From assembly GCA_913774665.1 (NCBI GenBank), contig CAJYHN010000001.1, forward strand, positions 227,664 through 291,663: a stretch of 64,000 nt of DNA, in the 5' to 3' direction. Shown here piece by piece: positions 24,931 through 46,759 of this stretch. The position numbers and the translations under genes were made by a program. The stretch comes from an uncultured Microbacterium sp. GTDB taxonomy: Bacteria > Actinomycetota > Actinomycetes > Actinomycetales > Microbacteriaceae. The notes under the pieces are model-generated. The model saw only the letters and a list, made by a program, of their open reading frames with translations. It made no database searches and had not been told where the DNA came from. How positions within the stretch are numbered: position 1 is the first letter of the stretch; the number at the start of each line of letters is the position of its first letter.

Positions 24931-25614
24931 TCAGGCCTCGAAGCGGTACCCCAGACCGCGCACGGTCACGAGCATGCTGGGCTCGCTCGGGTTCTGCTCG
25001 ATGCGCGAGCGGATGCGCTTGATGTGCACGTCGAGCGTCTTGGTGTCGCCGAAGTAGTCGGTCCCCCACACGCGGTCGATGAGCTGGCCACGCGTGAGCA
25101 CGCGCCCGGCGTTGCGCATGAGCACCTCGAGCAGCTCGAACTCCTTGAGGGGGATGTTGATCTCGCCGCCGTCCACGGCGACCGTGTGGCGATCGATGTC
25201 CAGCACGACGCGCCCGCCCGACAGGACGCGGTCGTCGAGATCGGCCTCCTCCGGCGTCCGGCGGCGCAGCACCGCGCGCATCCGCGCGAGGAGTTCGCGG
25301 GTCGAGTAGGGCTTGGTGACGTAGTCGTCTGCGCCGAGCTCGAGACCGACGACGATATCGACCTCGGAGTCCTTCGCCGTGAGCATGATGATCGGCACCT
25401 GCGAGCTCAGACGCACCTGACGGCACACCTCGGTGCCCGGCATCCCGGGGAGCATGAGATCCAGCAGCAGGATGTCGGCTCCGCGCTCTCGGAAGGCGAC
25501 CAGCGCGAGGGCGCCGTCCTCGGCGATCTCGACCTCGTACCCCTCGCGGCGCAGCAGGTAGGCCAGCGGGTCGGCCAGATCGGGTTCGTCCTCGACGATC
25601 AGAACGCGGGTCAT
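24931..25614 (-). CDS. regX3: Response regulator RegX3
   Basis: 227 residues, OmpR family: acidic pocket E8-D9, phospho-acceptor in LLLDLMLPGMPG, TKPYS lysine, winged helix ending VRGLGYRFEA. RegX3 (PhoP in Streptomyces) activates phosphate-starvation genes by binding PHO-box direct repeats. The assignment rests on its pairing with SenX3, the divergent phoU and the nearby gpmA, the mycobacterial arrangement. ATG overlaps the senX3 stop (ATGA). PHO-box-like sites occur at 26853, 33388 and 42464. Confidence 0.94.
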   Translation of the reverse strand: MTRVLIVEDEPDLADPLAYLLRREGYEVEIAEDGALALVAFRERGADILLLDLMLPGMPGTEVCRQVRLSSQVPIIMLTAKDSEVDIVVGLELGADDYVTKPYSTRELLARMRAVLRRRTPEEADLDDRVLSGGRVVLDIDRHTVAVDGGEINIPLKEFELLEVLMRNAGRVLTRGQLIDRVWGTDYFGDTKTLDVHIKRIRSRIEQNPSEPSMLVTVRGLGYRFEA

Positions 25615-26825
25615 GCGGTGTCTCCCTTCGCGGGTACGGGGGTCGTCGCGGAGCCCTTACGGCCTTTGCGACGGGGTTTGGGGCGGACGCTCTCGAGGTC
25701 GGGAGCCTCCGACAGCGGAAGGCGGATGGTGAAGGTCGAGCCGCGGTCGGGCCGAGACCACAGCCGCACCTCTCCCCCGTGGCGCTGGACGGCGTGCTTC
25801 ACGATCGACAGACCGAGTCCGGTTCCGCCGGTTCGGCGCGAGCGGGCCTGGTCGGCGCGGTAGAAGCGCTCGAAGACGCGGTGCTGATCGCTCTCGGGGA
25901 TGCCGATCCCGCGGTCGGTGACGGCGATCTCGACGACCGTGTCGTCGAGCTTGATGCCCACTCCGACTTTCGATCCCTCGGGCGAGTAGGCGATGGCGTT
26001 GGCCACCAGGTTGCCGACGGCCTCGGTGAGGATCTGCGGCTCCCCACGCACCCACAGGCCCTTCGTCCCCCCGCGGACCACCGTGACCTGAGCGGCGTCC
26101 GCCTGGATCGCGTACCCCTCGACCGCGGCGGTGACGACCTCGTCGATCGAGACGTCGCGGACGTCGCGCAGCTCGTCGGAGGCCTGCAGTCGCGAGAGGC
26201 TGAGGATGCGGTTGACGAGCGCGGCCAGTCGGGTGACCTCCGCCTGCAGGCGCGACGAGAAGTGCCGCACCTGCGCGGGGTCATCCGCGGCGGACTCGAT
26301 CGCCTCGGCGAGCAGACTCACCGCGCCGACGGGGGTCTTCAGTTCGTGGCTCGTGTTGGCCACGAAGTCGCGCCGCATCTCTTCCACACGCTCGTGCTCG
26401 GTGATGTCGCGCAGGACGAGCAGGGTGAGGCGCGCCGAGATGGGCGTGGCCCGCACGGCCACGAGGCGCGGTTCGGCGGGGGCGGCGCCGCGGCGAAGGC
26501 GCAGGTTCTCGGCGATGCCCGAGCCGGTGTCGCGCGCCACCCGGGACACGCGCTTGAGCTCTTCGCTGGCGATCACCTCTCCGGCGTGGACGCCGAACAC
26601 CTCGGCGGCCGGCGAGAGCGCCAGCACGGTCGATGAGGTGTCGCAGACGAATGCGGGGTCGTCCATCGCCCCCAGCATGGCCTCCACGCCCTCGGGCACC
26701 TCCGAGGAGGCCTGTGCGAGGGAACGGTCGCGAGCGCGGAGGGCTGCGACCACGAGGCCGACCACCGCGGCCCCGACCAGGAGTCCTGCGAGGAGCGCGA
26801 GCAGCACGAGCTGCGGTTGTTCCAT
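25611..26825 (-). CDS. senX3: Sensor histidine kinase SenX3
   Basis: 404 residues: one N-terminal TM hairpin (about 5-28), a PAS-like sensor domain (about 45-160), HisKA with phospho-His in NTSHELKTPV, and HATPase (NLVANAIAYS, GIGIPESDQ, GTGLGLSIV). Lys/Arg-rich C-terminus. SenX3 phosphorylates RegX3 when phosphate is short and is held inactive by PhoU and the Pst system. ATG at 26825 with TACGCT exactly 12 to 7 bases upstream (leaderless). Confidence 0.93.
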   Translation of the reverse strand: MEQPQLVLLALLAGLLVGAAVVGLVVAALRARDRSLAQASSEVPEGVEAMLGAMDDPAFVCDTSSTVLALSPAAEVFGVHAGEVIASEELKRVSRVARDTGSGIAENLRLRRGAAPAEPRLVAVRATPISARLTLLVLRDITEHERVEEMRRDFVANTSHELKTPVGAVSLLAEAIESAADDPAQVRHFSSRLQAEVTRLAALVNRILSLSRLQASDELRDVRDVSIDEVVTAAVEGYAIQADAAQVTVVRGGTKGLWVRGEPQILTEAVGNLVANAIAYSPEGSKVGVGIKLDDTVVEIAVTDRGIGIPESDQHRVFERFYRADQARSRRTGGTGLGLSIVKHAVQRHGGEVRLWSRPDRGSTFTIRLPLSEAPDLESVRPKPRRKGRKGSATTPVPAKGDTA

Positions 26826-26852
26826 GCCCCCAGCGTAGAGCCGCCTCTCGGG

Positions 26853-26874
26853 CGTCACCGGCCGTTCACCCCCG
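26853..26874 (+). promoter_or_regulatory. PHO-box-like repeats before phoU
   Basis: CGTCACC at 26853 and GTTCACC at 26864, 11 bases apart, matching the Streptomyces PHO-box unit GTTCACC. A TACTAT -10 at 26894-26899 places the box over the -35 of the phoU promoter. It also lies 28 bp before the senX3 start on the other strand. Confidence 0.6.
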
Positions 26875-26997
26875 TGCAGGCCGCGGCAGAGGCTACTATT
26901 CACTGTCACAGCACCACTCGTTAACCTTCGCTGGGAAGAATCCCCGAGGGTTGCGGGACACCTATGTGCCGTGCCGCCGACGAGGAAGGTACCCGCC

Positions 26998-27681
26998 ATG
27001 CGCGAAGTATTCCACCAGTCCCTCGAGGACGTTCAGAGCCGACTGGTCGAAATCGCCGACCTCGTGACCGTCGCGATCGACCGCGCCACGCGCGCCTTCG
27101 GTACGAGCGACGTCTCCCTCGCCGAAGAGGTCATCGAAGCCGACGCCGTCATCGACGAGAAGGCCTTCGAGCTCGACGAGCTCGCGATCGAGATCCTCGC
27201 CCGCCAGCAGCCCGTCGCCCGCGATCTGCGCATCGTCGTCACCGCCCTCCGCGTGAGCGCCTCGCTCGAGCGCATGGGCGACATGGCCGAGCACATCGCC
27301 CAGCTGGCGCGTTCGCGCTTCCCCGAGCGGGCCATCCCCAAGGGCCTGAAGAGCACCTTCACCCGCATGGGCGAGCTCGACGTCGAGGTGGCGCGCAAGC
27401 TCGCCGAGCTGCTGCGCACGCAGGACCTCCGCATCGCCGAGGCCATCCGCGACGCCGACGACGACATCGACGAGCTGCACGTCAGCGTCTTCGAGAAGGT
27501 GCTCGGCGACTCCTGGAAGGGCGAGGCCACCGCCACGGTCGACGCCACCCTCGCCAGCCGGTACCACGAGCGTTTCGCCGACCACGCCGTCTCGGTCGCG
27601 AAGAAGGTCGTCTACCTCGCGACGGGCGACTGGGCTGGCGCCGACGACGAGTCCGCTCACGAGCCGAGCCCCGTCATCTGA
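26998..27681 (+). CDS. phoU: Phosphate signalling protein PhoU
   Basis: 227 residues, two PhoU three-helix bundles (about 8-95 and 115-205) with the metal-binding pattern EADAVIDEKAFELDE and repeats RVSASLERMGDMAEHIAQLA. It links the Pst transporter to SenX3 and keeps the kinase silent when phosphate is plentiful. ATG at 26998 chosen because GAGGAAGG lies about eight bases upstream and relatives begin MREVFHQ. Divergent from senX3. Confidence 0.95.
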   Translation: MREVFHQSLEDVQSRLVEIADLVTVAIDRATRAFGTSDVSLAEEVIEADAVIDEKAFELDELAIEILARQQPVARDLRIVVTALRVSASLERMGDMAEHIAQLARSRFPERAIPKGLKSTFTRMGELDVEVARKLAELLRTQDLRIAEAIRDADDDIDELHVSVFEKVLGDSWKGEATATVDATLASRYHERFADHAVSVAKKVVYLATGDWAGADDESAHEPSPVI

Positions 27682-32563: not shown

Positions 32564-32677
32564 GCCCCCATCATCACCCACGACCCCCCTGACGCGCACC
32601 TGCAGCGCCGGTGTCGAGGGGCTTCGCCCGTCACCCTAAGATGATCGGGTGCGCGGCACGCCGCACGGGAGGTCCTC

Positions 32678-33370
32678 TTGGCACAGCTTCTGGTACTCAG
32701 CTCCGCCCCGGGCGGCGGCGCGGCCCTGCCTGCGCTCGAACTGCTGAGCCACCGGGTGAGGCAGATCCCCGCCGAGGCCGCGCAGCTGGTGAACGCCCCC
32801 AGCGCCGACGTCATCTTCGTCGACGCGCGCTTCGACCTGGTCGGCGCGAAGTCGCTCAGCAAGATCCTGACGACCACCGGCGTCGAAGCGCCGCTGGTGC
32901 TGATCGTCACCGAGGGCGGCCTCACCGCCGTCTCCACCGACTGGGGCATCGACGACGTCGTCCTGGTCGGAGCCGGCCCCGCCGAGATCGACGCGCGTAT
33001 CCGACTCGCGATGGGTCGTCGCGCCGCCGATCAGGTCTCCACGCGCATCCAGACCTCGGGGATCACGATCGACGAGTCCTCGTATTCGGCGAAGGTGCAC
33101 GGCAAGCCCCTCGATCTCACCTACAAGGAGTTCCAGCTCCTGCATTTCTTCGCCACGCACCCCTCTCGGGTGTTCACGCGCGAACAGCTGCTCAGCGAGG
33201 TCTGGGGCTACGACTACTTCGGCGGCACCCGCACGGTCGACGTGCACGTGCGCCGTCTGCGCGCGAAGCTCGGCGATCTCGAGCAGCTCATCGGCACGGT
33301 GCGCAACGTCGGCTACCGGTTCAACGTCTACGAAGACGACGCCCCCGCCGCGGCATCCCCCTCCGCATAA
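32678..33370 (+). CDS. glnR: GlnR-type atypical response regulator
   Basis: 230 residues: receiver-like domain and winged helix (about 135-220) with [13 protein letters not shown] and [20 protein letters not shown]. As in Streptomyces GlnR, the acidic pocket is lost (LVLSSAPGG at the N-terminus) and only the D49 site remains, so it is not expected to be phosphorylated. GlnR controls nitrogen assimilation genes such as glnA and amtB. TTG start with GGGAGG seven bases upstream; TAAGAT at 32638 gives a short leader. Confidence 0.85.
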
Positions 33371-33387
33371 AGCCACACGCACCGCGT

Positions 33388-33409
33388 GTTCACTCGCGTG
33401 TCACCGACC
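33388..33409 (+). promoter_or_regulatory. PHO-box-like repeats before ppk
   Basis: GTTCACT at 33388 and TGTCACC at 33399, 11 bases apart. The -10 AATGAT (33415-33420) follows directly, so the repeats overlap the -35 region, as PHO boxes do in Streptomyces. Confidence 0.55.
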
Positions 33410-33426
33410 CCTGCAATGATGTGGGG

Positions 33427-35595
33427 ATGATGGAACACGACTCGCTGGATGCCGGTCTCGGCGATGCCGACGACGACGACTTCGACGAGGCCGTAGAGGC
33501 CGAGGACGACCAGCTTCCCGACCACCGCTACCTGGACCGCGAGATCAGCTGGCTGTCGTTCAATCAGCGCGTGCTCGAACTGGCCGAAGACCCCACGGTC
33601 CCCGTGCTCGAGCGTGCGAACTTCCTCGCGATCTTCGCCAGCAACCTCGACGAGTTCTTCATGGTGCGCGTCGCCGGCCTGAAGCGTCGCATCGTCACGG
33701 GCCTGGCCGTCCCGACCAACGTCGGCCGCGCCCCTCTCGACGTGCTCGCCGACATCTCGGCCGAGGCGCACCGCCTGCAGCTGCGCCACGCGGCCGCGTG
33801 GACCGAGAAGGTGCGCCCCGCCCTCGCCGACGCCGGCATCGAGGTCGTCACGTGGGACTCGCTCGACGCACCCACCGCCGAGCGGCTCACCGAATACTTC
33901 CAGCGCAACGTCTTCCCGGTGCTCATGCCGCTCGCCGTCGACCCCGCGCACCCGTTCCCGTACATCTCGGGCCTGTCGCTCAACCTCGCGATCCGCATCC
34001 GCAACGCCCGCACGGGCCGCCAGGAGTTCGCTCGCCTCAAGGTGCCCCCCATGCTCCCCCGCTTCGTCGAGATCGGCGGAGACGGGCCCGGCGTGCGTTA
34101 CCTGCCGCTCGAGGAGCTCATCTCGAACCACCTCGGCGACCTGTTCCCCGGGATGGAGGTCCTCGATCACCACGCGTTCCGCCTGACGCGCAACGAGGAC
34201 ATGACGATCGAAGAGGACGAGACCGAGAACCTCATCCAGGCGCTCGAGGCCGAGCTCCTGCGTCGTCGCTTCGGCCCGCCCATCCGCCTCGAGATCACCG
34301 AGGACATGGACGACGTGACCCGCTCGCTGCTGCTGAGCGAACTCGACATCACCGAGCAGGAGGTCTACCGGCTGCCCGGCGCCCTCGATCTGCGCGGCCT
34401 GTTCGACCTCTCCCGCATCGACCGGCCCGATCTGCGCTACCCGCCGCACGTGCCCAAGACGGCTCTGGCCTTCCAGCCGCCCGAGCAGAACGGCCGCGCC
34501 GACCTGTTCGGAGCGATCCGCAAGGGCGACGTGCTCGTGCACCACCCCTACGAGTCGTTCGCGACGAGCGTGCAGGCCTTCCTCGAGCAGGCCGCCCGCG
34601 ACCCGCACGTGCTCGCCATCAAGCAGACGCTGTACCGGACCTCGGGCGACAGCCCGATCGTGCAGGCCCTCATCGACGCGGCCGAGGCCGGCAAGCAGGT
34701 GCTCGCGCTCGTCGAGGTGAAGGCCCGCTTCGACGAGGCCAACAACATCGTCTGGGCCCGCAAGCTCGAGAAGGCCGGCGTCCACGTCGTCTACGGCCTC
34801 GTCGGCCTCAAGACCCACTGCAAGCTCGCCCTCGTCATCCGCGAAGAAGAGGGGCGCCTGCGCCACTACAGCCACGTCGGCACGGGCAACTACAACCCCA
34901 AGACGAGCCGCATCTACGAGGACTTCGGTCTGTTCACCGTCGACGACCAGGTCGGTCGCGACCTGACCCGTCTGTTCAACGAGCTCAGCGGGTACGCGAT
35001 CGAGAAGAAGTTCAAGCGTCTGCTCGTCGCGCCCCTGCACCTGCGCCGAGGGCTCCTCCGCCACATCGACAAGGAGCGCCGCAACGCTCTCGAGGGCAAG
35101 CCCTCGGGGGTGCGGATCAAGGTCAACTCGATGGTCGACGAAGAGATCATCGATGCCCTGTACCGCGCGAGCCAGGCGGGCGTGCCCGTCGAGGTGTGGG
35201 TGCGCGGCATCTGCTCGATCAAGCCCGGCGTCCCCGGGATGAGCGAGAACATCACGGTGCGCTCGATCCTCGGCCGCTACCTGGAGCACTCCCGCATCTT
35301 CACGTTCGAGAACGACGGCGACCCTCAGGTGTTCATCGGCAGCGCCGACATGATGCACCGCAACCTCGACCGCCGTGTCGAGGCGCTGGTCCGCGTGGTC
35401 GACCCCGTGCAGGTGCAAGAGCTCACGACCCTGTTCACCCTCGCGATGGACGACGGGACGAGCTCGTGGCACCTGGGGTCGGAGGGCGAGTGGACGCGGC
35501 ACAGCGTCGACGACGACGGGGCGCCGCTCATCGACCTGCAGGAGCACACGATGGCTCTCATCCAGCGCAAGCGTCGGGCCCGGACGGCGCGGTGA
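33427..35595 (+). CDS. ppk1: Polyphosphate kinase 1
   Basis: 722 residues, forms inorganic polyphosphate from ATP. N domain (about 25-130), head domain, and two PLD-like C domains; the autophosphorylated His lies in the [11 protein letters not shown] block, followed by [26 protein letters not shown] is exactly 12 to 7 bases before the ATG (a second ATG follows at once), so the mRNA is probably leaderless. Coupled by a GTGA overlap to the mutT1-type gene, the mycobacterial order. Confidence 0.97.
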
Positions 35596-36542
35596 CGAAG
35601 GCCGAGACCGAGACCGCCGTCTACGCGGCCGGCGGTGTGGTGTGGCGGCAGGTCGAGGGAAAGCTCCGCATCCTGCTCATCCACCGCACGAAGTACCGGG
35701 ATCTGACCCTCCCGAAGGGCAAGGTCGATCCCGGCGAGACGCTCGCCGAGACCGCCGTGCGCGAGATCCGTGAAGAGACCGGCATCCGGGTCTCGCTGGG
35801 GGTGCCCGTCGGCGTCTCTCGATACCGGATGCCGAGCTCGCGCACCAAGATCGTGCACTACTGGGCGGCCGAGGCGACCGATGCCGCCGTGCGGAGTTCG
35901 ACGTTCGTGCCGAACAAAGAGGTCGCGGCGATCGAGTGGGTGAGCCTGAAGAAGGCCCGCAAGAACCTCAGCTACCCCGTCGACATCGAGATCCTCGACG
36001 AGTTCACGAGGATCGTCGAAGAGGGCGCCCTGCCCACCTTCCCGATCGTCGTGCTGCGCCACGGCAAGGCGCGGTCCCGCGAGGAGTGGGAGGGCTCCGA
36101 CAGCGCCCGTCCCCTGACCCCGCGCGGGCGCCGTCAGGCCGAGGCGATCGTCGGCCCCCTCCTCGCCTTCGGTGTGCGCCGGGTCTATTCGAGCCCCGCC
36201 GAGCGCTGTATCCGCACCGCCACTCCCCTCGCGCAGGCGCTCGGCCAGCGCGTCCACCTGACCGAAGCCGTCAGCCAGGACGCGTGGGAAGAGGGCCGCG
36301 CCGACGCACGGTCGCTCATCGGCGAGCGGGTGCGCGCGCGCAAGCCGATCGTCGTGTCGAGCCACCGACCCGTCCTCCCCGACATCCTGCACGAGCTCGC
36401 GCTCGCGACCGGAACGATGGGCGGCTCGTACCTCGGAAGCGCTTCGGCGCTGGAACCCGCGGCGTTCTCGGTCGTGCACATCCCCGTCGAGCACCCCGGC
36501 GCCGGCATCGTGGCCATCGAGACGCACGAACCGAAGGTGTGA
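35592..36542 (+). CDS. mutT1: MutT1-type Nudix hydrolase with histidine phosphatase domain
   Basis: 316 residues. Nudix domain (about 8-140) with an intact Nudix box (43-65: GKVDPGE...REIREETGI) and a C-terminal histidine phosphatase/SixA-like domain with RHG at 156-158. The mycobacterial homologue cleans 8-oxo-GTP/dGTP and diadenosine polyphosphates from the nucleotide pool. GTGA overlap with ppk and with the next gene gives a three-gene coupled operon. Confidence 0.94.
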
Positions 36543-37159
36543 CGCTTCCCCCCGGCATCCGTCTCGTCTGGCGCGAGGTCCCCGCGGGCTCCGCGCGCCG
36601 AGACGTGTCGCGGGCTCTGCTGGCCGAGCTCCTGCCGGGCGCTCGGTTCCGCTCACGCTGCCCCGCGTGCGGCGGGGACCACGGCCGCATCCGCGTGGAG
36701 GGGGCGGATGCCGCGGTCTCGGTGTCGTACGTCGACGGATGGGCCGTCGCGGTGGCGGCGCGGGGTCACGAACGCGTCGGGCTGGACGCGGTGCCCGTCG
36801 ATGCGCGGGGTCTGGAGCGGGTGCTTCCGCGGCTCGTGCCCGGAGGGGCGGGCGATCTCGAATCGCGCACTCCGGGAGCGGGAGCGGATGCCGGCGGGTC
36901 GAGCGCCGCGCCCGCTCGCGCGTGGGCGCGCGTCGAGGCCGTCCTGAAAGCCGACGGACGCGGGCTGACCGTCGATGCGCGACGGGTCGACGTCCAGGGG
37001 CACGGGGACACGTGGGAGGCTCGAATCCTCCCGTCCGCCTCAAGCGATCCGTCCCCCGCGGAGGGCCCCCCACGCGAATGGCGCGGGTGGGACCTCGATG
37101 GTCCGGCGGGCTTCGTTCTCGCGGTGGCGGTCCAGAGCGGGTCGGGCCTCTCCGCCTGA
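36539..37159 (+). CDS. 4'-phosphopantetheinyl transferase-like protein
   Basis: 206 residues. The superfamily's two core motifs are visible: VGLDAVPVDA (magnesium site) and WARVEAVLKADGRGL (the WxxKEA-like helix, here with Val for Lys). The enzyme would transfer phosphopantetheine from CoA to a carrier-protein serine. CPACGGDHGR near residue 40 could be a metal-binding loop. GTGA overlap with mutT1. The nearby Pls-like synthetase has a carrier domain that needs such activation, so it is the likely client (inference). Confidence 0.75.
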   Translation: MTLPPGIRLVWREVPAGSARRDVSRALLAELLPGARFRSRCPACGGDHGRIRVEGADAAVSVSYVDGWAVAVAARGHERVGLDAVPVDARGLERVLPRLVPGGAGDLESRTPGAGADAGGSSAAPARAWARVEAVLKADGRGLTVDARRVDVQGHGDTWEARILPSASSDPSPAEGPPREWRGWDLDGPAGFVLAVAVQSGSGLSA

Positions 37160-37178: not shown

Positions 37179-38477
37179 TCAGGGTCGCGCGGGCAACGCC
37201 ACGTCGTCGATCCACCGCGACAGCACCGCTGCGGCATCCGGTCCCCCGGCGCTTTCGACCGCGGCGCGGAAATCGTCCGTGGTGACGAGGGCATGGCGGT
37301 GGTCCGTCGTCCACGTCCGCAGGAGATCGAAGAACGCCTCGTCGCCGAGGGTGCACCGCAGCGCGTGCAGCGTCAGGGCGCCGCGCTTGTAGACCCGGTC
37401 GTCGAACATGTCATCGGGCCCGGGATCGACCAGCAGGAGGTCGCGCGGCTTGGCGGCGAGTCGCGCGTAGTGGTCCGCGACGCACGATTCGACGGAGGCC
37501 CCGCCCGAGGTCTCCGACCACAGCCACTCCGCGTAGCAGGCGAAGCCCTCGTTCAGCCAGATGTCGCTCCACCGGGCGATCCCCACGCTGTTGCCGAACC
37601 ACTGATGTGCCAGCTCGTGCGCCACCAGTCGCTGCGCCGCGGGAACGAGGTGGTTCATCCCGAACACCGCGAGCCCCTGCGCCTCGAGGGGAATCTCGAG
37701 CTCGTCGGCGGTCACCACGAGGGTGCACGCTTCTTGCGGGTACGGCCCGAAGAAGCGGTCGAAGGCCCGCAGCATGTCGGGCACCGTCGCGAAGGCGCGG
37801 TCGACCGCGGCGGTGAGGGCCGGAGGGGCGGTCACGGTCACGGCGGGCACCAGGGCCTCTCCGGTGCCCTCGAGCTGACGCGTGCGGTACCGACCGACGT
37901 GCACGGCCGCCAAGTACGTCGCCGTGGGGACGTCGGAGACGAACGTCGTTGTCGTCCGCCCACCTCGGCGCGTGCGGGGGCCTGCGACGCCGGTGGCGGC
38001 GGCCACGTAGCCGTCGTCGACCGTGATCTCGAGGCGCATGCGCGCCCTGTTGTCGGGGCGGTCGTTGCACGGGAACCAGGTCGGTGCGCCGATGGGCTGC
38101 CCCGCGACCAGAGCGCCGTCGGTCAGCTCCTCCCAGCCGACGGTCCCCCACCGCGACCGGCGGGGAGCGGGCGCGCCCGCGTAGGTCACCTCGACCTCGA
38201 AGCGGTCCCCGGGAGCGAGGGCCTGCGGGGGCGTCACCCGCAGGATCCGCGGCCCCGCCGAGAAGCGTGCGTTGACCCCGTCGACACGCACGCGCGAGGT
38301 GCGAAGACCGACGAGGTCGATCGCGAACGACGACACGGACTCGCGCGCGACCGCGACGATCGTCGCGACGCCGTCGAGGCGGTTGGTGCGGACGCGGTAG
38401 CCGATCGCGAGGTCGTACGACTCGACGTCGTAGGAGAGATCGCCGCTCTGCGGGGCGTAGGAGTCGGCCACGCTCAC
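37179..38477 (-). CDS. M1-family zinc metallopeptidase (aminopeptidase N-like)
   Basis: 432 residues: N-terminal beta-saddle domain and a thermolysin-like catalytic domain with zinc motif HELAHQWFGN and the downstream Glu in NEGFACYAEW. The exopeptidase GAMEN loop reads GMNHL. No C-terminal ERAP-like helical domain, so this is the short M1 form; no signal peptide. The start overlaps the synthetase stop (GTGA). In epsilon-poly-lysine producers a zinc peptidase that degrades the polymer has been reported; a similar self-protection or turnover role here is inference. Confidence 0.9.
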   Translation of the reverse strand: MSVADSYAPQSGDLSYDVESYDLAIGYRVRTNRLDGVATIVAVARESVSSFAIDLVGLRTSRVRVDGVNARFSAGPRILRVTPPQALAPGDRFEVEVTYAGAPAPRRSRWGTVGWEELTDGALVAGQPIGAPTWFPCNDRPDNRARMRLEITVDDGYVAAATGVAGPRTRRGGRTTTTFVSDVPTATYLAAVHVGRYRTRQLEGTGEALVPAVTVTAPPALTAAVDRAFATVPDMLRAFDRFFGPYPQEACTLVVTADELEIPLEAQGLAVFGMNHLVPAAQRLVAHELAHQWFGNSVGIARWSDIWLNEGFACYAEWLWSETSGGASVESCVADHYARLAAKPRDLLLVDPGPDDMFDDRVYKRGALTLHALRCTLGDEAFFDLLRTWTTDHRHALVTTDDFRAAVESAGGPDAAAVLSRWIDDVALPARP

Positions 38478-41400
38478 GTCGTCGACTGGTACGCGCGCAC
38501 CTTCACCGCGCGCCACGGGCCGATGGGGTTGCCGCTCCACCGCGAACCGACCGGGACGGTCTCGCCACGCATGACGAGCGAGGCGGGACCCACGGTCGCG
38601 TGCGCGCCGAGGGTGGAGGCGGGGAGGACGACGCTGTGCGGCCCGAGGGTCGACCCCGGCTCCAGCTCGACGGTATCCATACTCATGATTCGATCATGGA
38701 ACAGGTGCGTCTGCACCACGCATCCGCGGTTGACGGTTGACGCGTCGCCCAAAGTGACGAGGTCGGGTTCGGGCAACCAGTAGCTGTCGCACCACACGCC
38801 ACGACCGATCTTCGCGCCGAGGCTCCGCAGCCAGACGGCGAGCGCCGGGGTTCCCGCCGCCGCGCGCGCGAACCACGGGGCCGCGACCATCTCGGTGAAG
38901 GTGTCCGACACCTCGGTGCGCCAGACGAAACTCGACCACAGCGGCTGCTCCCCCGCGCGGATCACGCCGACGATGGCCCACTTCGCCGCGGTCGAGACCC
39001 CCGCGGCGACGGCCCCCGCCGCGAGCAGCACGACGCCCGACAAAAGTAGCGCCCACACCGGACCGAGGGTGTCCCAGAGTGCGGCGAGCGCGAAGATCAC
39101 GCCGAGGCCGATCGCGCAGGTGACGACGACCGGCACGAAGCGGCAGAGCTCCCACAGGGTCCGCGCGAGACGCAGGCTCGCGGTCGGTCGGTAGGTGCGC
39201 GACTCGTCGCCCTCCGCCGAGAGCCGGCGAAGACGCACGGCGGGCGAGCCCAACCATGACGATCCCGCCTTGGCCTTCACCGGGGCCGCGGACAGGACGG
39301 CGACCAGCCCGTCCCGCGGAACGCGGTGACCGGGCGCGGCCATTCCGGAGTTTCCGAGGAAGGCGCGCTTGCCGATCCGCACGGGCCCGAGGCGCATCCA
39401 CCCCGCGCGAAGCTCGTACGACGCGACCATCGTGTCATCGGCGAGGAACGCTCCGTCTTCGATACGCGTCATCGACGGAATCAGAAGGACCGTCGAGGCC
39501 TCGACGTCGTGCCCGACGCGCGCACCCAGCAGGCGCAGCCACACCGGGGTGAAGAGCGAGGAGTAGAGGGGGAAGAGCACCGTGCGGGCGGCATCCAGGA
39601 GTCTTTCGATCGTCCACGCCTGCCACGCCACGCGGCTGCGCACCGGGTGGGTGCCCTCGGTGAGACCGATCGACATCACGCGCACGAGAAGGACGACGGA
39701 TGCCGCGAACACCAGGCCTGCGACGGCGACACCCGGGACGAGCCAGACGAAGGCGCCCGCGGCCGCGTGGCCGAGATCGTCCGCCCCGCGGATCCCCTGC
39801 GCGACGACGAGGCCGCCGACGGCGAAGGAGGCGAGCGGAAGAAGAGCGAGCACCACCGCCGATGCCGCATAGGCCCACAGCCAACGGGTGGGCGCCGGGG
39901 GCCGCTGCGTGGGCCATCCCTTCGCCGTCCCGCCCACGCGGACGGCGGGCGACCCCGCCCACGACTGGTCCGCCTTGACGCGTCCGAAGACGGCTGAGCC
40001 CGGCGCGATCTCGGCGCGGCGACCGATGCGGGTGCCGGGCGCCAGCGTCGAGCGAGCGCCGACCGTGGCATCGGCGCCGATGCGCAGGTCGCCGATGCGG
40101 ACGAGGTCGCCGTCGATCCAGTACCCGGTCAGGTCGACCTCGGGCTCGATCGAGGCCCCGTCGCCGACGACGAGCATCCCCGTGACGGGAGGCAACGCGT
40201 GCAGGTCGACGTTCCGACCGATCCGCGCGCCCAGAGCGCGGGCGTAGTACGACACCCAGGGGGCTCCGGCCAGCCCCACGGCATCCACCTGATCGGCGAT
40301 CTGCTCGGCGAGCCAGAGCCGGATGTGCACCCACCCGCCCCGCGGATAGTCGCCGGGGCGCACGCCCGAGAGAAGGAGTCGAGCGGATGCCACGGCGATG
40401 GCCATGCGCCCGAACGGCGTCGCGAAGACGAGGAGGCCGACGACGAGGACGGGCCAGGGCACCGAGGGCAGCACGTCGAATCCGGGGACGACCTGGAGGA
40501 TCGCCGAGGCCGTGAGCAGGTACAGCAACCACCGCACACCCGAGAGGATGAACAGCGGAGCGCCGAGAAGGGTCTGCGCCCACTGGGTGGTGCGCGGCGT
40601 CGGTTCGGCGCGGTGGAAGGCGGCGGGCGTCTCGTCGGAGAGCTGGGGCCCGAGCGCCTTGGCCATCGCCCCGAGGCGCGGCACGTCGTAGATGTCGGCG
40701 ACCGAGAACTCCGGCACCCGTGCCCGGATGCGCGAGACCAGCTGCGCGGCGGCGAGCGACCCCCCACCGAGATCGAAGAAGTCGGCCTTGCGCTCGGTGA
40801 CCGGAATGCCCAGGACGGCCTGCCACTGCTCGGCCAACCACGCCTCGTCGACGGAGAAGTCCGTCGCGGCGGGGGCCTCCACCCCCGGGAGGGGCCACGG
40901 GAGGGCCGCGCGGTCGACCTTGCCCGAGGTGCGGACCGGCAGGGAGTCCACCACGCCCAGGAGGGGGATGGTCGCGGCCGGGAGGCGCTCCGCGAGAGCC
41001 GCACGAGCCGCGCCGCGATCGAGCTCGGCGCCGACCTCCATCACGAGGTAGCCGACGAGGACCGGCACCCCCGCTTCGGTGGTCCGCACGGCCACGGTCG
41101 CCGCGCTCACGTCCGGAAGATCCTGCAGGGCCGATTCGACCTCGCCGAGCTCGATCCGGCGGCCGCCCACCTTGACCTGATCGTCCGCGCGCCCCTGGAA
41201 CACCAGGCCTTCGCGCTCGAAGCGCACGAGGTCTCCCGAGCGGTAGGCGCGCTCCCACCCGAGGGTCGGCATCGGCGCGTACTTCTCAACGTCCTTCGCG
41301 GGATCGAGGTACCGGGCGAGGCCGACACCGCCGATGATCAGCTCGCCGACCGCTCCCTCGGCGACGGGGAGTCCCTCGGCATCCACCACCGCGAGGGCCC

Positions 41401-42412
41401 ATCCGTCGAGGGGCAGACCGATGCGCACGGGCAGAGAGCCGTCGAGCGGAGCGGCGCACGCGACGACGGTGGCCTCGGTCGGGCCATAGGTGTTCCAGAC
41501 CTCACGCCCCTCGGCCACGAGGCGAGCGGCGAGTTCGGGCGGACACGCCTCTCCGCCGAAGATCAGCAGGCGCACGTTCTCGATCGAGTCGGCGGGCCAC
41601 ATCGCGGCGAGGGTCGGAACGGTGGAGACGACCGTGATCCCCTGGCGCAGCAGCCACGGCGCAAGGTCCTCCCCCGAGCGCACGAGAGAACGAGGAGCCG
41701 GCACGAGGCACGCTCCGTGTCCCCAGGCGAGCCACATCTCCTCGCACGAGGCGTCGAACGCGACCGACAACCCGGCCAGCACGCGGTCGCCGGGGCCGAG
41801 CGGCTCGTCCTGCAGGAAGATCCGTCCCTCCGCCTCGACGAACGCCGCCGCGGAGCGGTGCGACACCGCCACCCCCTTGGGAACGCCGGTCGATCCCGAG
41901 GTGAAGATGATCCACGCGTCGTCGTCGATCGTGGGCGGGTCGACGAGGGGGATGGCGCTCGTGCGGGGGTGCGGCGCCGCTCCGTCGTAGAGGCGGACGA
42001 GATCACCCTCGGTCGCGACGAATTCCCCCTCGCCCGCGACGATCCCGCGCACCCCTGCTTCGCCGAATACCAGGCGCGCGCGCTCGTCGGGGTCATCGGC
42101 GTCGACCGGCACGTACGCGGCGCCAGCCGCCATGACCGCGAGGATCGAGACGTACAGTTCCTTCGACCCGGAAGGCATGCGCACGCCCACGCGGTCGCCC
42201 CGGCGCACTCCTGCCTCCTGCAGCGCAGCTGCCGTCCGCCAGACCCGCGCGAGCAGTTCGCGGTAGCTGAGCGCTCCCGATCCGTCATCGATCGCGGAGG
42301 CCTCCGGATGCCGAGAGGCGACGTCGGTGAGGATGTCGATGAGGGTGCGCGCGGGAGCCGCAGCCTCCGTTCGGTCGAGCGGGGCCTGAGCTGCGGAAGC
42401 GGAGGTCGTCAC
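38474..42412 (-). CDS. Pls/PosA-type NRPS-like membrane synthetase
   Basis: 1,312 residues. Adenylation domain (about 25-520) with A3 IIFTSGSTGVPKG, A4 FDASCEEMW, A5 NTYGPTEAT, A7 YRSGDLV; carrier domain with the phosphopantetheine Ser in FFDLGGGSLAAAQL (about 545); then six TM helices separating three soluble domains of tandem type (left-handed beta-helix/condensation-like). This is the exact layout of Streptomyces Pls, which makes epsilon-poly-L-lysine. An eye alignment gives A-domain code D-A-E-S-I-G-T-V-V-K, close to the lysine code D-A-E-S-I-G-S-V-C-K reported for BacB. GTG start; a single GTTCACC lies just upstream. Product predicted, not shown. Confidence 0.88.
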   Translation of the reverse strand: MTTSASAAQAPLDRTEAAAPARTLIDILTDVASRHPEASAIDDGSGALSYRELLARVWRTAAALQEAGVRRGDRVGVRMPSGSKELYVSILAVMAAGAAYVPVDADDPDERARLVFGEAGVRGIVAGEGEFVATEGDLVRLYDGAAPHPRTSAIPLVDPPTIDDDAWIIFTSGSTGVPKGVAVSHRSAAAFVEAEGRIFLQDEPLGPGDRVLAGLSVAFDASCEEMWLAWGHGACLVPAPRSLVRSGEDLAPWLLRQGITVVSTVPTLAAMWPADSIENVRLLIFGGEACPPELAARLVAEGREVWNTYGPTEATVVACAAPLDGSLPVRIGLPLDGWALAVVDAEGLPVAEGAVGELIIGGVGLARYLDPAKDVEKYAPMPTLGWERAYRSGDLVRFEREGLVFQGRADDQVKVGGRRIELGEVESALQDLPDVSAATVAVRTTEAGVPVLVGYLVMEVGAELDRGAARAALAERLPAATIPLLGVVDSLPVRTSGKVDRAALPWPLPGVEAPAATDFSVDEAWLAEQWQAVLGIPVTERKADFFDLGGGSLAAAQLVSRIRARVPEFSVADIYDVPRLGAMAKALGPQLSDETPAAFHRAEPTPRTTQWAQTLLGAPLFILSGVRWLLYLLTASAILQVVPGFDVLPSVPWPVLVVGLLVFATPFGRMAIAVASARLLLSGVRPGDYPRGGWVHIRLWLAEQIADQVDAVGLAGAPWVSYYARALGARIGRNVDLHALPPVTGMLVVGDGASIEPEVDLTGYWIDGDLVRIGDLRIGADATVGARSTLAPGTRIGRRAEIAPGSAVFGRVKADQSWAGSPAVRVGGTAKGWPTQRPPAPTRWLWAYAASAVVLALLPLASFAVGGLVVAQGIRGADDLGHAAAGAFVWLVPGVAVAGLVFAASVVLLVRVMSIGLTEGTHPVRSRVAWQAWTIERLLDAARTVLFPLYSSLFTPVWLRLLGARVGHDVEASTVLLIPSMTRIEDGAFLADDTMVASYELRAGWMRLGPVRIGKRAFLGNSGMAAPGHRVPRDGLVAVLSAAPVKAKAGSSWLGSPAVRLRRLSAEGDESRTYRPTASLRLARTLWELCRFVPVVVTCAIGLGVIFALAALWDTLGPVWALLLSGVVLLAAGAVAAGVSTAAKWAIVGVIRAGEQPLWSSFVWRTEVSDTFTEMVAAPWFARAAAGTPALAVWLRSLGAKIGRGVWCDSYWLPEPDLVTLGDASTVNRGCVVQTHLFHDRIMSMDTVELEPGSTLGPHSVVLPASTLGAHATVGPASLVMRGETVPVGSRWSGNPIGPWRAVKVRAYQSTT

Positions 42413-42463
42413 GGAGGTGAACAGTACAACGCCCAGGAAAACACCCCGGAACGGCCGCCCCGG

Positions 42464-42485
42464 TTCACCTTCCGTTCACCCGTGC
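42464..42485 (+). promoter_or_regulatory. PHO box before pstS
   Basis: Two exact GTTCACC units at 42464 and 42475, 11 bases apart, the textbook actinobacterial PHO box. Further GTTTACC and GTTCACG units stand at 42510 and 42517. Confidence 0.85.
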
Positions 42486-42571
42486 AACGCAGTCTGTTAT
42501 CCGTCGCTGTTTACCGTTCACGACGAACCCTGCACCGGGTTCCTGTTCCCGACATGCGAAGGATTCACACC

Positions 42572-43699
42572 GTGAAGCTCTCCCGACTCGCCCAGCTGGG
42601 CACCGTGGCCGCCGTGGCCTCCCTGACCCTCGCCGGCTGCGCCGGCCCCTCGGGCTCCGGCGACGCCGCGGGCTCGACCCCCTCGTCGACCTCGTCCGAC
42701 GTCGCTTTCACGATCGACTCGAACCTCTCGGGCACGATCACCGCGGGTGGCTCGAGCGCCCAGGCCAACGCGCAGGCCGCGTGGACCAGCGCCTACAACG
42801 CCCAGGCCAAGGGCGTCACCATCAACTACGACAAGTCGCAGGGCTCCGGCGGTGGCGTCACCAACTTCCTCAGCGGCGCGTACGACTTCGCCGGCTCCGA
42901 CTCGCCGCTGAACGCGGACCAGACGGCTCAGTCCAAGGCCCTCTGCACCGACGGTGGCGTCAACATCCCCGTCTACCTCGACGGCGTGGCCATCATCTTC
43001 AACATCCCCGGCGTCACGAGCCTGAAGCTCTCGGGCGAGACGATCGCGAAGATCTTCGCTCTGCAGATCACCGACTGGTCCGACCCGGCCATCACCAAGG
43101 ACAACGGCACGGCCCTCACCGCCGGCCCCATCACGACCGTCGCACGTTCGGACGGCTCGGGCACCACCACCAACTTCACCAACTACCTCGCCGCGACCCA
43201 GTCGTCGGTGTGGACCTCCCCGGCCGGCAAGGACTGGCCGATCGAGGGCAACGTGTCGAAGCAGAAGGGTGGCTCGGGTGTCGTCGAGGCCGTCAAGGCC
43301 GGCTCCGGAACCATCGGCTACGCCGACCACTCCGCCATCGGCAGCCTGAACGCCGCATCGATCATCCAGGACGGCACCGCCATCGCGTTCAGCCCCGAGG
43401 CCGTCACCGCGACCTTCGCGGCCGCCGCGGTCGACGCCAGCAACGGTGTCACCGGCGACCTGTCGAAGAAGTTCGACTACTCGAAGCTGACCGCTGAGAC
43501 GTACCCGATCCCGCTCGTGTCGTACGCGATCACCTGCACCACGTTCAAGGACGCCAAGCAGTCCGAGCTCGTCAAGTCGTACCTCGGCTTCGTGACCAGC
43601 ACGCTCGGCCAGCAGGTCGCGGCCAAGAACGCCGGCTCCGCGCCGCTGCCCGACTCGGTGCTCTCGGCTGCCGCCGAGACCCTCGCGTCGATCAAGTAA
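42572..43699 (+). CDS. pstS: Phosphate-binding lipoprotein PstS
   Basis: 375 residues: lipoprotein signal peptide with lipobox LAGC, then the type II periplasmic-binding-protein fold; the phosphate-binding pattern GGSSAQ..A..AW and SDGSGTT and FAGSD blocks are visible. Captures phosphate outside the membrane for PstCAB. GTG at 42572 preferred (GAAGGA eight bases upstream) over the in-frame ATG at 42554. Confidence 0.95.
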   Translation: MKLSRLAQLGTVAAVASLTLAGCAGPSGSGDAAGSTPSSTSSDVAFTIDSNLSGTITAGGSSAQANAQAAWTSAYNAQAKGVTINYDKSQGSGGGVTNFLSGAYDFAGSDSPLNADQTAQSKALCTDGGVNIPVYLDGVAIIFNIPGVTSLKLSGETIAKIFALQITDWSDPAITKDNGTALTAGPITTVARSDGSGTTTNFTNYLAATQSSVWTSPAGKDWPIEGNVSKQKGGSGVVEAVKAGSGTIGYADHSAIGSLNAASIIQDGTAIAFSPEAVTATFAAAAVDASNGVTGDLSKKFDYSKLTAETYPIPLVSYAITCTTFKDAKQSELVKSYLGFVTSTLGQQVAAKNAGSAPLPDSVLSAAAETLASIK

Positions 43700-43826: not shown

Positions 43827-43862
43827 ATGACCCGTGCCGAGCGTGAGGTCCCCCGTGACTGA
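43827..43862 (+). CDS. Possible 11-codon leader ORF before pstC
   Basis: ATG with an ideal Shine-Dalgarno (GAGGAG, four bases upstream) reads M-T-R-A-E-R-E-V-P-R-D then TGA at 43860, overlapping the GTG starts of pstC in another frame. Confidence 0.3.
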   Translation: MTRAEREVPRD

Positions 43863-44874
43863 CACCGTCGCTGACACAGAGACCGCCCCGTCCTCCCCTC
43901 CCCCGCCTCGGACGTCGATCATCGGCAAGCGCCGTGTCGGCGACTCGGTCTTCCTGGGTCTGTCGACCACGGCCGCCGTGTCGATCATGATCATCCTCGC
44001 CGGGGTCGCGATCTTCCTGATCATCCGCGGCATCCCCGCGATCACCGGCAACTGGACCGAGGGCGACCTCGCCGGTTACCAGAACGGCAGCTGGACCAAC
44101 TTCTGGGAGTACGTCGGTCCGCTGCTGTTCGGCAGCATCTGGGCCGCGCTCATCGCCATGGTCGTCGGCACGCCGGTCGCCATCGGCATCGCGCTGTTCA
44201 TCTCGCACTACGCGCCGCGTCGGATCGCCGGCTTCCTCGGCTACATCGTCGATCTGCTGGCCGCCGTGCCCTCGATCGTCTTCGGCCTGTGGGGCATCAT
44301 CGTCATGCGCCCGCTGCTCGTGCCGGTCGGCGAGTTCCTCAACCAGTACCTGGGCTGGATCCCGCTCTTCCAGGGCCCGGTCTCGACCACGGGCTCGACG
44401 ATGTTCACCGGTGGGGTCGTCCTCGCCGTGATGATCCTCCCGATCGTCACCTCGATCACGCGCGAGATCTTCCTGCAGACCCCCCGCCTGCACGAAGAGG
44501 CTGCCCTCGCCCTGGGCGCCACGCGGTGGGAGATGATCCGCCTCGCGGTCTTCCCCTACGCCCGCAGCGGCATGGTCTCGGCCACGCTCCTCGGCCTCGG
44601 CCGTGCGCTCGGCGAGACGATGGCCATCGCGCTGATCGTCTCGCCCAGCCTGATCTACTCGGTGCTGCTGCTCACCGACGGGTACAACTCGCAGACCATC
44701 GCGGCCAACATCGCGCTGAACTTCCCGATCGCCACCGACCTCCAGCGCTCGGCGCTGATCGGTACCGGCCTCATGCTGTTCGTCGTCTCTCTCGCGGTGA
44801 ACATGCTCGCCCGCTACATCATCGGGGCGACCGGCCCCGGTGCGAAGGGTCGCAAGAAGGGCAAGCGCTCATGA
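43834..44874 (+). CDS. pstC: Phosphate ABC permease PstC
   Basis: 346 residues from GTG 43834 (alternative GTGs at 43843 and 43855). Six TM helices and the PBPsystem permease EAA-loop motif AALALGATRWEMIRLAVFP. Cytoplasmic-membrane partner of PstA. The best Shine-Dalgarno belongs to the ATG of the leader ORF, so the exact start is unsettled. Ends inside pstA (ATGA). Confidence 0.93.
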   Translation: MPSVRSPVTDTVADTETAPSSPPPPRTSIIGKRRVGDSVFLGLSTTAAVSIMIILAGVAIFLIIRGIPAITGNWTEGDLAGYQNGSWTNFWEYVGPLLFGSIWAALIAMVVGTPVAIGIALFISHYAPRRIAGFLGYIVDLLAAVPSIVFGLWGIIVMRPLLVPVGEFLNQYLGWIPLFQGPVSTTGSTMFTGGVVLAVMILPIVTSITREIFLQTPRLHEEAALALGATRWEMIRLAVFPYARSGMVSATLLGLGRALGETMAIALIVSPSLIYSVLLLTDGYNSQTIAANIALNFPIATDLQRSALIGTGLMLFVVSLAVNMLARYIIGATGPGAKGRKKGKRS

Positions 44875-45959
44875 CCGTCACTGCCCCCTCATCGTCGTCT
44901 CCCCTGGCCCTCACGAGCGGCCAGCTGCCCCGCTTCATCGAGCCTGCGCTTCTGGTCGGTGTGGCCGTCGTCGTCGCTGTCATCCAGCTCCTGATGGGCG
45001 GCATCAATGTCGCGACGTGGCTGATCCTCTCGGCGGTGCTGTACCTGATCGCGATCGGGGTCGGGTCCTCGATCGTCGAGAACCGCCGCAAGGCGGTGGA
45101 TCGCGTCGTCCGCGGCCTGGTGACCGTCGCCTTCCTGCTGGCGGTCGCGCCTCTCATCTCGACCCTGTGGACCGTGATCTCCAAGGGTCTCGCGGTGGTG
45201 AACTGGAGCTTCGTCACGCAGGTGGGCGGCACCGCCTTCAACCCCGACACCCTCGAGGTCGTCGCGACGGCGGGTGCCTGGCAGGCCATCACGGGCACGC
45301 TCATCATCACGGGTATCGCCGCCCTCATCTCGGTGCCGATCGGCGTCCTCGCCGCGGTCTACCTGGTCGAGTACGCGCAGCCGAACAACCCGCTGCGTCG
45401 AGCGATCACCTTCCTCGTCGATGTCATGACAGGCATCCCCTCGATCGTCGCCGGTCTGTTCGCGTTCTCGCTGTTCAGCCTGATCGTCGGTCCGAAGGCG
45501 TTCAGCGGGTTCTCGGCATCCATCGCCCTCTGCGTGCTGATGATCCCCATCGTCATCCGCTCCACCGAAGAGATGCTGCGCCTCGTCCCGGCCGACCTGC
45601 GCGAGGCTTCTCTCGCCCTGGGCGTGCCGCGCTCGGCGACCATCGTCAAGGTCGTGCTGCGCACCGCGGCCTCCGGAATCATCACGGGTGTCGTGCTGGC
45701 CGTGGCCCGCGTCGTCGGTGAGACGGCCCCGATCTTCATCGCGGCGAGCTTCACCGACAACTTCAACGCCAACCCTTTCGACGGCCCGATGCAGACCCTC
45801 CCCGTGATGGCCTACACCGCGTACAGCTTCCCCGGTCAGGACATCGACGCGTCCCAGGCGAACGCCTGGGGTGCGGCCTTCCTGCTCGTCGTCCTCGTCG
45901 TCATCTTCAACCTGATCGCCCGTATCGTGGCGGCGGTGTTCGCGCCCAAGGCGCGCTGA
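44871..45959 (+). CDS. pstA: Phosphate ABC permease PstA
   Basis: 362 residues, longer at the N-terminus than enteric PstA because of an extra TM pair (about 25-70). EAA motif [19 protein letters not shown] is present, and six further TM helices. ATGA overlap with pstC. Forms the channel with PstC. Confidence 0.95.
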
Positions 45960-45979: not shown

Positions 45980-46759
45980 GTGTCCAAGAGCATCGAGGTC
46001 CAGGACCTCAACGTCTACTACAGCGACTTCCTCGCGGTCGAGGGCGTCTCGATCGACATCGAGCCCCGCTCGGTCACCGCCTTCATCGGCCCCTCGGGCT
46101 GCGGCAAGTCGACGTTCCTGCGCACGCTGAACCGCATGCACGAGGTCATCCCCGGCGGTCGCGTCGAGGGCCGGGTCCTGATCGACGGCGACGATCTCTA
46201 CGGCGCGGGCGTCGACCCCGTGCTCGTGCGTCGTCACGTCGGCATGGTCTTCCAGCGCCCCAACCCCTTCCCGACCATGTCGATCCGCGAGAACGTGCTG
46301 GCCGGCGCGAAGCTCAACGACAAGCGGATGGCGAAGAGCGACGCGGATGCCCTGGTCGAGAAGTCGCTGAGGGGCGCCAACCTCTGGAACGAGGTCAAGG
46401 ACCGTCTCGACAAGCCCGGCGGCGGACTCTCCGGCGGTCAGCAGCAGCGTCTGTGCATCGCACGCGCCATCGCCGTCTCTCCCGACGTGCTGCTGATGGA
46501 CGAGCCGTGCTCGGCTCTTGACCCGATCTCGACCTTCGCGATCGAAGAGCTGATCGGTGAGCTGAAGAGCGAGTACACCATCGTGATCGTGACGCACAAC
46601 ATGCAGCAGGCCTCGCGTGTGAGCGACAAGACGGCGTTCTTCAACATCGCCGGCACCGGCAAGCCCGGCAAGCTCATCGAGTACAACGACACCGCGTCGA
46701 TCTTCACCGCACCCAGCGTGCAGGCGACCGAGGACTACGTCTCGGGCCGCTTCGGATAA
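45980..46759 (+). CDS. pstB: Phosphate ABC ATPase PstB
   Basis: 259 residues: Walker [11 protein letters not shown]-loop QRPNPFP, signature LSGGQQQR, Walker B LLMDEP and H-loop THNMQQA, with the PstB-specific MARV-like C-terminus replaced by VSGRFG. Powers PstCA. GTG start with AAAGG 10 bases upstream. Last gene of pstSCAB. Confidence 0.96.

Follow-up and report, generated by a model that had tools for sequence, protein, structure and literature searches.

A gene for a membrane-bound epsilon-poly-L-lysine synthetase, pls, very probably occupies 38474..42412 of a stretch of DNA from an uncultured Microbacterium sp., with a PldII-type peptidase as its partner and a neighbouring phosphopantetheinyl transferase (PPTase)-like protein as a probable second one. 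The stretch analysed (the window) comprises 64,000 nucleotides (assembly GCA_913774665.1, contig CAJYHN010000001.1, positions 227,664 to 291,663 of the forward strand), and the genome carrying it measures 3.58 Mb. Judging from promoter sequences, pls and pldII may also belong to the Pho (PhoP/RegX3) starvation regulon across a broad range of Actinobacteria, the window strain included, a proposal that we regard as evenly balanced. The three genes are as follows.

38474..42412, minus strand: pls, predicted epsilon-poly-L-lysine synthetase, 1312 aa (profile matches, 7wew relative, pocket, model)
37179..38477, minus strand: pldII-like M1 metallopeptidase, 432 aa; its GTG start overlaps the pls stop (GTGA)
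36539..37159, plus strand: short Sfp-type PPTase-like gene, 206 aa, convergent with pldII; its GTG start overlaps the mutT1 stop (GTGA)

Domain architecture of Pls

The pls reading frame spans exactly 38474-42412 on the minus strand and starts with GTG at 42412. The adenylation (A) domain, about residues 25-505, matches the NCBIfam model TIGR01733 at residues 49-440 (342 bits, cut-off 317.4) and is followed by a carrier domain (PF00550, residues 525-587), whose LGGGS motif identifies Ser552 as the phosphopantetheine serine. Residues 612-1297 match TIGR02353, 'Pls/PosA family NRPS' (nonribosomal peptide synthetase), with 714.5 bits, far over the cut-off of 423.1. The Pfam scan assigned AMP-binding, carrier (PP-binding) and Hexapep families to the protein and detected no condensation or thioesterase domain.

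The C-terminal part of Pls, about residues 590-1300, contains six transmembrane (TM) helices and three beta-helix-type domains. After residue 590, hydropathy places the helices in three pairs: 615-633 and 644-668; 844-874 and 880-919 (880-898 and 899-919 merged); and 1087-1119 and 1120-1143. Another hydropathy flag, at residues 85-104, lies inside the A domain and was taken as false. The long helices in an AlphaFold2 model of residues 590-1312 coincide with the hydropathy helices; the mean predicted local distance difference test (pLDDT) score is 74.6, and the model is poor across most of the last 80 residues. A hexapeptide repeat (PF00132) is located at residues 777-808, between membrane helices. 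The top Foldseek match of the C-terminal model is a galactoside O-acetyltransferase, a weak match with a best E of 3e-3, and none reaches E 0.001. This match agrees with the prediction of three left-handed beta-helices over six helices in the C-terminal region of PosA (PMC10522769; publications are cited throughout for the portions of their text available to us). The initial annotation had described a Pls-type synthetase at 38474..42412 with an A domain, a carrier, six TM helices and three soluble domains. The gene is full-length, and TIGR01733, PF00550, the hydropathy profile, the model and TIGR02353 bear out both the family and the architecture.

Adenylation pocket and predicted substrate

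The best solved relative of Pls is 7wew_A, 'Epsilon-poly-L-lysine synthase' (A domain, E 3e-184), which we take to be the Streptomyces albulus enzyme. The pocket of the window protein, in its own numbering, consists of D220, A221, E224, S263, I284, G286, T308, V316, V317 and K498 (DAESIGTVVK) and is identical to that of 7wew at 10/10 positions; nine of these residues lie in an ungapped alignment, and K498 follows a 4-residue gap. The corresponding PheA positions were assigned from motifs, and their spacing is within one residue of the PosA numbering in PMC10522769. A non-lysine pocket was rejected, all ten residues being equal to those of Pls. Since the pocket is the same as in 7wew and Ala at position 2 is the lysine-type state according to the PosA paper (PMC10522769), the substrate call is well supported. 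The lysine-like code proposed in the initial annotation thus holds, and its alignment by eye was right at all ten places, the numbers given there being PheA numbers.

Relatives of pls were taken from a genome collection, in which 587 were confirmed and the best 80 kept as comparison loci (L-series). The nearest, L009, L010 and L074, are Microbacterium with 91-92% protein identity. DAESIGTVVK occurs in 81/81 sequences, that is, in the window protein and all 80 relatives. Pocket position 2 is Phe or Leu in three distant plasmid Pls/PosA proteins with functionally uncharacterised products. For these proteins, of Rhodococcus, Azospirillum and Rhizobium origin, the comparison covered the FD..EE and YGPTE motifs alone.

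We consider it very improbable that Pls polymerises another cationic amino acid, namely ornithine, diaminobutyrate, diaminopropionate or beta-lysine. Such polymers are all made by the same protein family (PMC10522769, PMC8117764), and the label Pls/PosA itself spans several of them. The comparison set is, by its construction, limited to the closest 80 relatives, and the codes were compared by sequence, without docking; these points count against the lysine assignment. Another substrate is in turn disfavoured by the Ala at position 2, by the Phe or Leu of the three distant proteins at that position, by the identity of the pocket with that of Pls, and by the peptidase context, which is described as typical of lysine synthetases and not of the other three (PMC8117764).

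A Pls/PosA gene on plasmid pR8L1 of Rhodococcus sp. 008 (L096) encodes Phe at pocket position 2 and is followed, in place of the peptidase, by BPL-N and heparan-alpha-glucosaminide N-acetyltransferase-type genes. Pls matches at E 1e-200 or better were found in 22/396 genomes of the phylum and 123/396 genomes of the order, the window's own genome counted. Among 1965 plasmid records matching Pls, 4 share 60-80% identity and 1961 less, many of the latter probably through the A domain alone.

Peptidase and probable PPTase partner

The pldII-like peptidase carries the zinc motif HEXXH-18-E (HELAHQ...E), as do 80/80 relatives, and the GXMEN aminopeptidase motif is missing from the window protein and from all 80. 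It is called PldII-like from this zinc motif and from its place beside pls. By tblastn, an M1 peptidase lies downstream of pls in 80/80 loci, with 0.6-2.2 kb separating the two genes in four cases, and an annotated Streptomyces homologue has an M1 metallopeptidase gene immediately downstream. In S. albulus, pldII adjoins pls and is translationally coupled to it (PMC9223678). The homologous pls-peptidase operon of Corynebacterium variabile has a proven epsilon-poly-L-lysine product, established by expressing its pls gene in Streptomyces coelicolor under the S. albulus pls promoter (PMC8117764).

The protein encoded at 36539-37159 matches the Pfam family ACPS with 19.5 bits, under the 25-bit gathering cut-off, and no NCBIfam model. 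Its predicted structure clearly has a PPTase fold: an AlphaFold2 model based on 24 sequences has a mean pLDDT of 86.6, and its 30 PDB matches with an E of at most 0.001 all prove to be PPTases. Nine columns are invariant among the 24 sequences, including D83, E133 and K137. The Microbacterium forms have a shorter N-terminus than those in other Microbacteriaceae (e.g. L021, L022, L029), which carry the motifs CxxCGGxHGRP and WxxxEAxxKADGRG and resemble ordinary PPTases of the Sfp type.

A hidden Markov model (HMM) was trained on the window protein together with 23 proteins from the loci; it gave a match at 38/80 pls loci, 23 of the 38 by construction. Beyond the peptidase and on the opposite strand lie 37/38 matches, five of them more than 0.5 kb distant (L019, L075, L077, L078, L088); one (L033) lies elsewhere. 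The stretch L217 gave no PPTase match in the scan, and a Rhizobium Pls/PosA gene has an annotated PPTase gene immediately downstream.

The window PPTase is not the only one of its genome, which has two better-scoring PPTases elsewhere: the first is encoded in an open frame of 143 aa, and the second adjoins a ketoacyl-synthase gene of contig C8. Three carrier-domain matches were found in the genome. The contig C8 cluster (G000, L095) includes the ketoacyl synthase, an amine-oxidase-type flavoprotein, a DUF4872/BtrH-like protein and an FtsX-type permease. The PPTase just mentioned belongs to this cluster, a carrier-domain match lies nearby, and the whole is probably another specialised-metabolite locus.

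Proposed pathway

The A domain of Pls would activate L-lysine as an adenylate and then load it on the carrier domain, which the short neighbouring PPTase probably primes. The six-helix C-terminal region with its three beta-helix domains would link the lysines via the epsilon amino group, and the finished poly-lysine, an antimicrobial polymer, would exit the cell. The overlapping PldII-type M1 peptidase may trim the polymer or protect the cell. The direct basis for the synthetase reading is the domain make-up, the pocket identity, the operon and its conservation, and the predicted PPTase fold. The lysine substrate, epsilon linkage and peptidase role are carried over by analogy from the work on S. 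albulus and C. variabile, and we infer that the window strain may produce the polymer. One observation weighs against the PPTase part of this picture: the second acid of the GxDxE motif in the window protein is Val85, not glutamate. As to production in a native host, C. variabile, which has a proven Pls, gave no polymer in two-stage culture and no detectable Pls protein (PMC8117764).

PHO box between pls and pstS

The pls gene and the phosphate-binding protein gene pstS diverge from a shared region that contains a PHO box.

42413..42571, divergent genes on both sides: pls-pstS shared intergenic region, 159 bp
42463..42480, plus strand: PHO box GTTCACC-N4-GTTCACC, repeats directed toward pstS

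The box (GTTCACCTTCCGTTCACC) is located 50 nt from the pls start and 91 nt from the pstS start. It is the one exact copy of GTTCACC-N4-GTTCACC in the genome; a second site deviates at a single position, and no copy of the backwards control pattern occurs. PHO boxes are defined as two 7-nt repeats with a 4-nt spacer, and the core in S. coelicolor is GTTCACC (PMC4415409). The box is near pls at promoter distance, yet it is the same box as that of pstS. Since its repeats run toward pstS and not toward pls, it alone says nothing firm on pls.

The order ppk-mutT1-PPTase / pldII-pls / pst is shared by 11/80 relatives, every one Microbacteriaceae. The pstS-directed box is exact in ten of these and has one mismatch in L013. 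That the box serves pstS alone and pls is a bystander that came to lie beside pst in Microbacterium, not phosphate-controlled, is an explanation to which we assign a little less than an even chance. It accords with the direction of the repeats. It also accords with the pls-pstS gap of 0.8-1.2 kb at 6/11 syntenic loci, where the best box is on the pstS side. Four Microbacterium loci in which pls is not near pst (L019, L020, L023, L028) show no pls-directed box at <=2 mismatches, and eight further genomes of the genus (second set, below) have none (0/8). The wide gaps and the missing boxes also speak against phosphate control of pls.

A conserved stretch that the window shares with its three nearest relatives precedes the pls start and contains TANNNT (TACTGT; TACGCT in L010) 8 nt ahead of the GTG. 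Since no Shine-Dalgarno sequence was seen before the pls start, the pls transcript may be leaderless, with TACTGT as a putative -10 element.

PHO boxes before pls in other genomes

The first set comprised 69 loci without pstS in their flanks (up to 10 kb; four with <9.5 kb upstream). A pls-directed doublet was present in the first 250 bp of 16/69 loci at <=2 mismatches and of 3/69 at <=1, compared with 1 and 0 of 851 other greedily called genes in the same loci. With 400 bp and <=2 mismatches, a period of 11 gave 16/69, against 0-2/69 for every other period between 7 and 18, and 60 permuted motifs gave a mean of 0.3 and a highest count of 7/69. Of all heptamers within 250 bp upstream of pls, GTTCACC recurs in the most loci (26/69).

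For the second set, 100 pls upstream regions were chosen from the phylum and order matches described above; removal of the 8 that shared >=90% identity with the first set across 400 bp left 92. Here the pls-directed doublet occurred at <=2 mismatches in 11/92, against 0-2/92 at other periods, and in 2/847 control genes at equal 300-bp length (Fisher p 3e-10, relatedness ignored). The 11 matches are spread over 9/42 genera, compared with 0-2 for six other periods that were tried, and GTTCACC is narrowly the commonest heptamer (29/92; next 25/92). Chance was rejected as the source of the box before pls by the repeat spacing, the permuted motifs and the control genes. These frequencies outside the genus (16/69 vs 1/851 and 11/92 vs 2/847) argue against pls being a mere bystander of pstS.

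As a positive control, twelve genomes, ten of them picked for a box at pls, were queried for pstS; eleven matched, with 15 matches. The 13 stronger matches, in 11 genomes, all have a pstS-directed doublet at <=2 mismatches, 7 of them exact. Exact sites were scanned in seven genomes, and the backwards control pattern gave zero in all seven. G406 (5.3 Mb) has just two exact boxes, one at pstS and the other, on a separate contig, at pls, another point against the bystander explanation. G670 has three exact boxes, at pstS, at pls and at one other place. G450 has two, at pstS and one other place, and a one-mismatch site at pls; both boxes of G524 are at pstS genes. G590, of the window's own genus, has one exact box, before pls yet directed away from it; the single exact box of G463 is elsewhere, and G597 has none.

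A further explanation, which we judge unlikely, is that the box before pls elsewhere is the site of another OmpR-type regulator, for example one of acid or envelope stress. Direct repeats of 11 nt are common to OmpR-family regulators, and many Arthrobacter- and Nocardia-type loci have variant repeats, CGACACC-N4-GTTCACC or GTTTGCC-N4-GGTAACC, at similar distances. In addition, acid induces epsilon-poly-L-lysine synthesis in S. albulus, where the pls promoter is bound by the sigma factor HrdD (PMC4361855), an observation that also tells against Pho control. Against another regulator stand the GTTCACC doublet in 13/13 pstS regions (7/13 exact) and the published GTTCACC core of the S. coelicolor PHO box (PMC4415409).

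The variant repeats could be degenerate PHO boxes or sites of another OmpR-type regulator. In Nocardia loci (e.g. L036, L038, L041, L051, L059), GTTTGCC-N4-GGTAACC lies about -80 to -130 from pls; it is 4 mismatches from the PHO box and is possibly a different regulator's site.

Several further observations weigh against Pho-regulon membership of pls. The box is absent at threshold in 53/69 and 81/92 loci. At 3 mismatches the contrast weakens, to 25/69 vs up to 12/69 and 25/92 vs up to 10/92 at other periods. The doublet runs in the opposite direction in 2/69 loci of the first set and 6/92 of the second, one of the six, L119, belonging to the window's genus and having its box directed away from pls; direction is therefore a tendency, not a rule. 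The PHO box is missing from the pls promoter of S. albulus, where the closest site within 500 bp has 5 mismatches, from 5/5 named Mycolicibacterium/Mycobacterium loci, from five loci of one genus with 8.6-9.9 Mb genomes (L111-L115) and from two Streptomycetaceae plasmid homologues (L099, L100), and these cases led us to reject the box as universal for pls. If Pho control does hold, a cell short of phosphate would secrete the polycation, perhaps lysing neighbours or holding phosphate-rich polyanions nearby.

Phosphate genes around pls

In the window, a regulator-kinase pair and the divergent phoU are followed by ppk, mutT1 and the PPTase-like gene, then by pldII-pls on the opposite strand, and then by pstSCAB.

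24931..25614, minus strand: OmpR/PhoB-type response regulator, candidate PhoP/RegX3
25611..26999, minus strand: PhoR/PnpS-type histidine kinase, profile scores under equivalog cut-offs
26971..27681, plus strand: phoU, divergent from the regulator-kinase pair
32611..35595, plus strand: open reading frame (ORF) with C-terminal polyphosphate kinase (ppk), PPK domains from about residue 307
35592..36542, plus strand: MutT1-like NUDIX and histidine phosphatase protein; its in-frame GTG at 35592 overlaps the ppk stop
42572..43696, plus strand: pstS, phosphate-binding protein (TIGR00975, 185.4 bits, under the cut-off of 205)
43834..44874, plus strand: pstC, profile match
44871..45959, plus strand: pstA-position permease, start approximate, named by position
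45980..46759, plus strand: pstB-position ATP-binding cassette ATPase, named by position

The profile scores of the regulator at 24931-25614 are highest for YycF (251.6), followed by MtrA and, after it, PhoB (228.7), all under their cut-offs, and a different regulator in the genome scores slightly higher with the PhoB model. Since phoU and a PhoR-type kinase are its neighbours, it may be PhoP/RegX3. Another OmpR/PhoB-type regulator-like frame at 32678-33370 (plus strand) overlaps the N-terminal part of the ppk ORF, before the PPK domains; it matches TIGR02154 with 115 bits, under the cut-off, and its receiver-domain start is unmatched. Translation of ppk itself probably begins a good way downstream of 32611.

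In 8/11 syntenic relatives (L011, L012, L014-L018, L074), PstS is about 40-43%, PstC about 53-57% and PstB 88-92% identical to the window proteins. Since PstS and PstC identity is low and PstB identity high, pstS and pstC look replaced within an otherwise conserved operon.

Comparison with known systems

A Pho-type site occurs at a minority of pls promoters over many genera, and Pho control, if true, could explain the silence of pls in rich laboratory media. The PPTase neighbour suggests which PPTase to co-express when such pls genes are transferred. Some members of Microbacterium have the complete unit, short PPTase included, placed between ppk-mutT1 and pstSCAB.

The additions without precedent in the titles and abstract openings consulted are the PPTase-like neighbour and the PHO box at pls/pstS and at other pls promoters. 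These texts yielded no published link of poly-lysine synthesis to phosphate control and no published pairing of a PPTase with Pls; an earlier report of either is possible. In the available texts, PMC9195005 has PhoP only among its references, the review PMC8506220 names HrdD and pH and not PhoP, and phosphopantetheinyl transferases appear in PMC4361855 merely as an enriched gene class.

The window enzyme itself is ordinary, a further Pls of established type, since coryneform Pls homologues are already published and Microbacterium is named among the genera that have them (PMC8117764); it adds one more likely poly-lysine producer to the existing list. It resembles S. albulus Pls in domain order, in the ten pocket residues (7wew) and in the adjoining, coupled pldII (PMC9223678). 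It differs in lying among phosphate genes, with a PPTase-like gene convergent on pldII, whereas the published pls promoter of S. albulus lacks a PHO box and is known to be controlled by acid pH and HrdD (PMC4361855). The C. variabile and other coryneform Pls enzymes share the lysine-type pocket and the operon with a peptidase gene; the word 'phosphate' is absent from the available main text of that paper, which also makes no mention of a PPTase (PMC8117764). PosA, the delta-poly-L-ornithine synthetase of Acinetobacter, belongs to the same family as the window Pls and, unlike it, has the pocket DMEHNGTVSK, uses ornithine and forms a single-gene operon (PMC10522769). The intergenic site is like that of the actinobacterial Pho regulon, in which two GTTCACC repeats with a 4-nt spacer lie upstream of pstS (PMC4415409).

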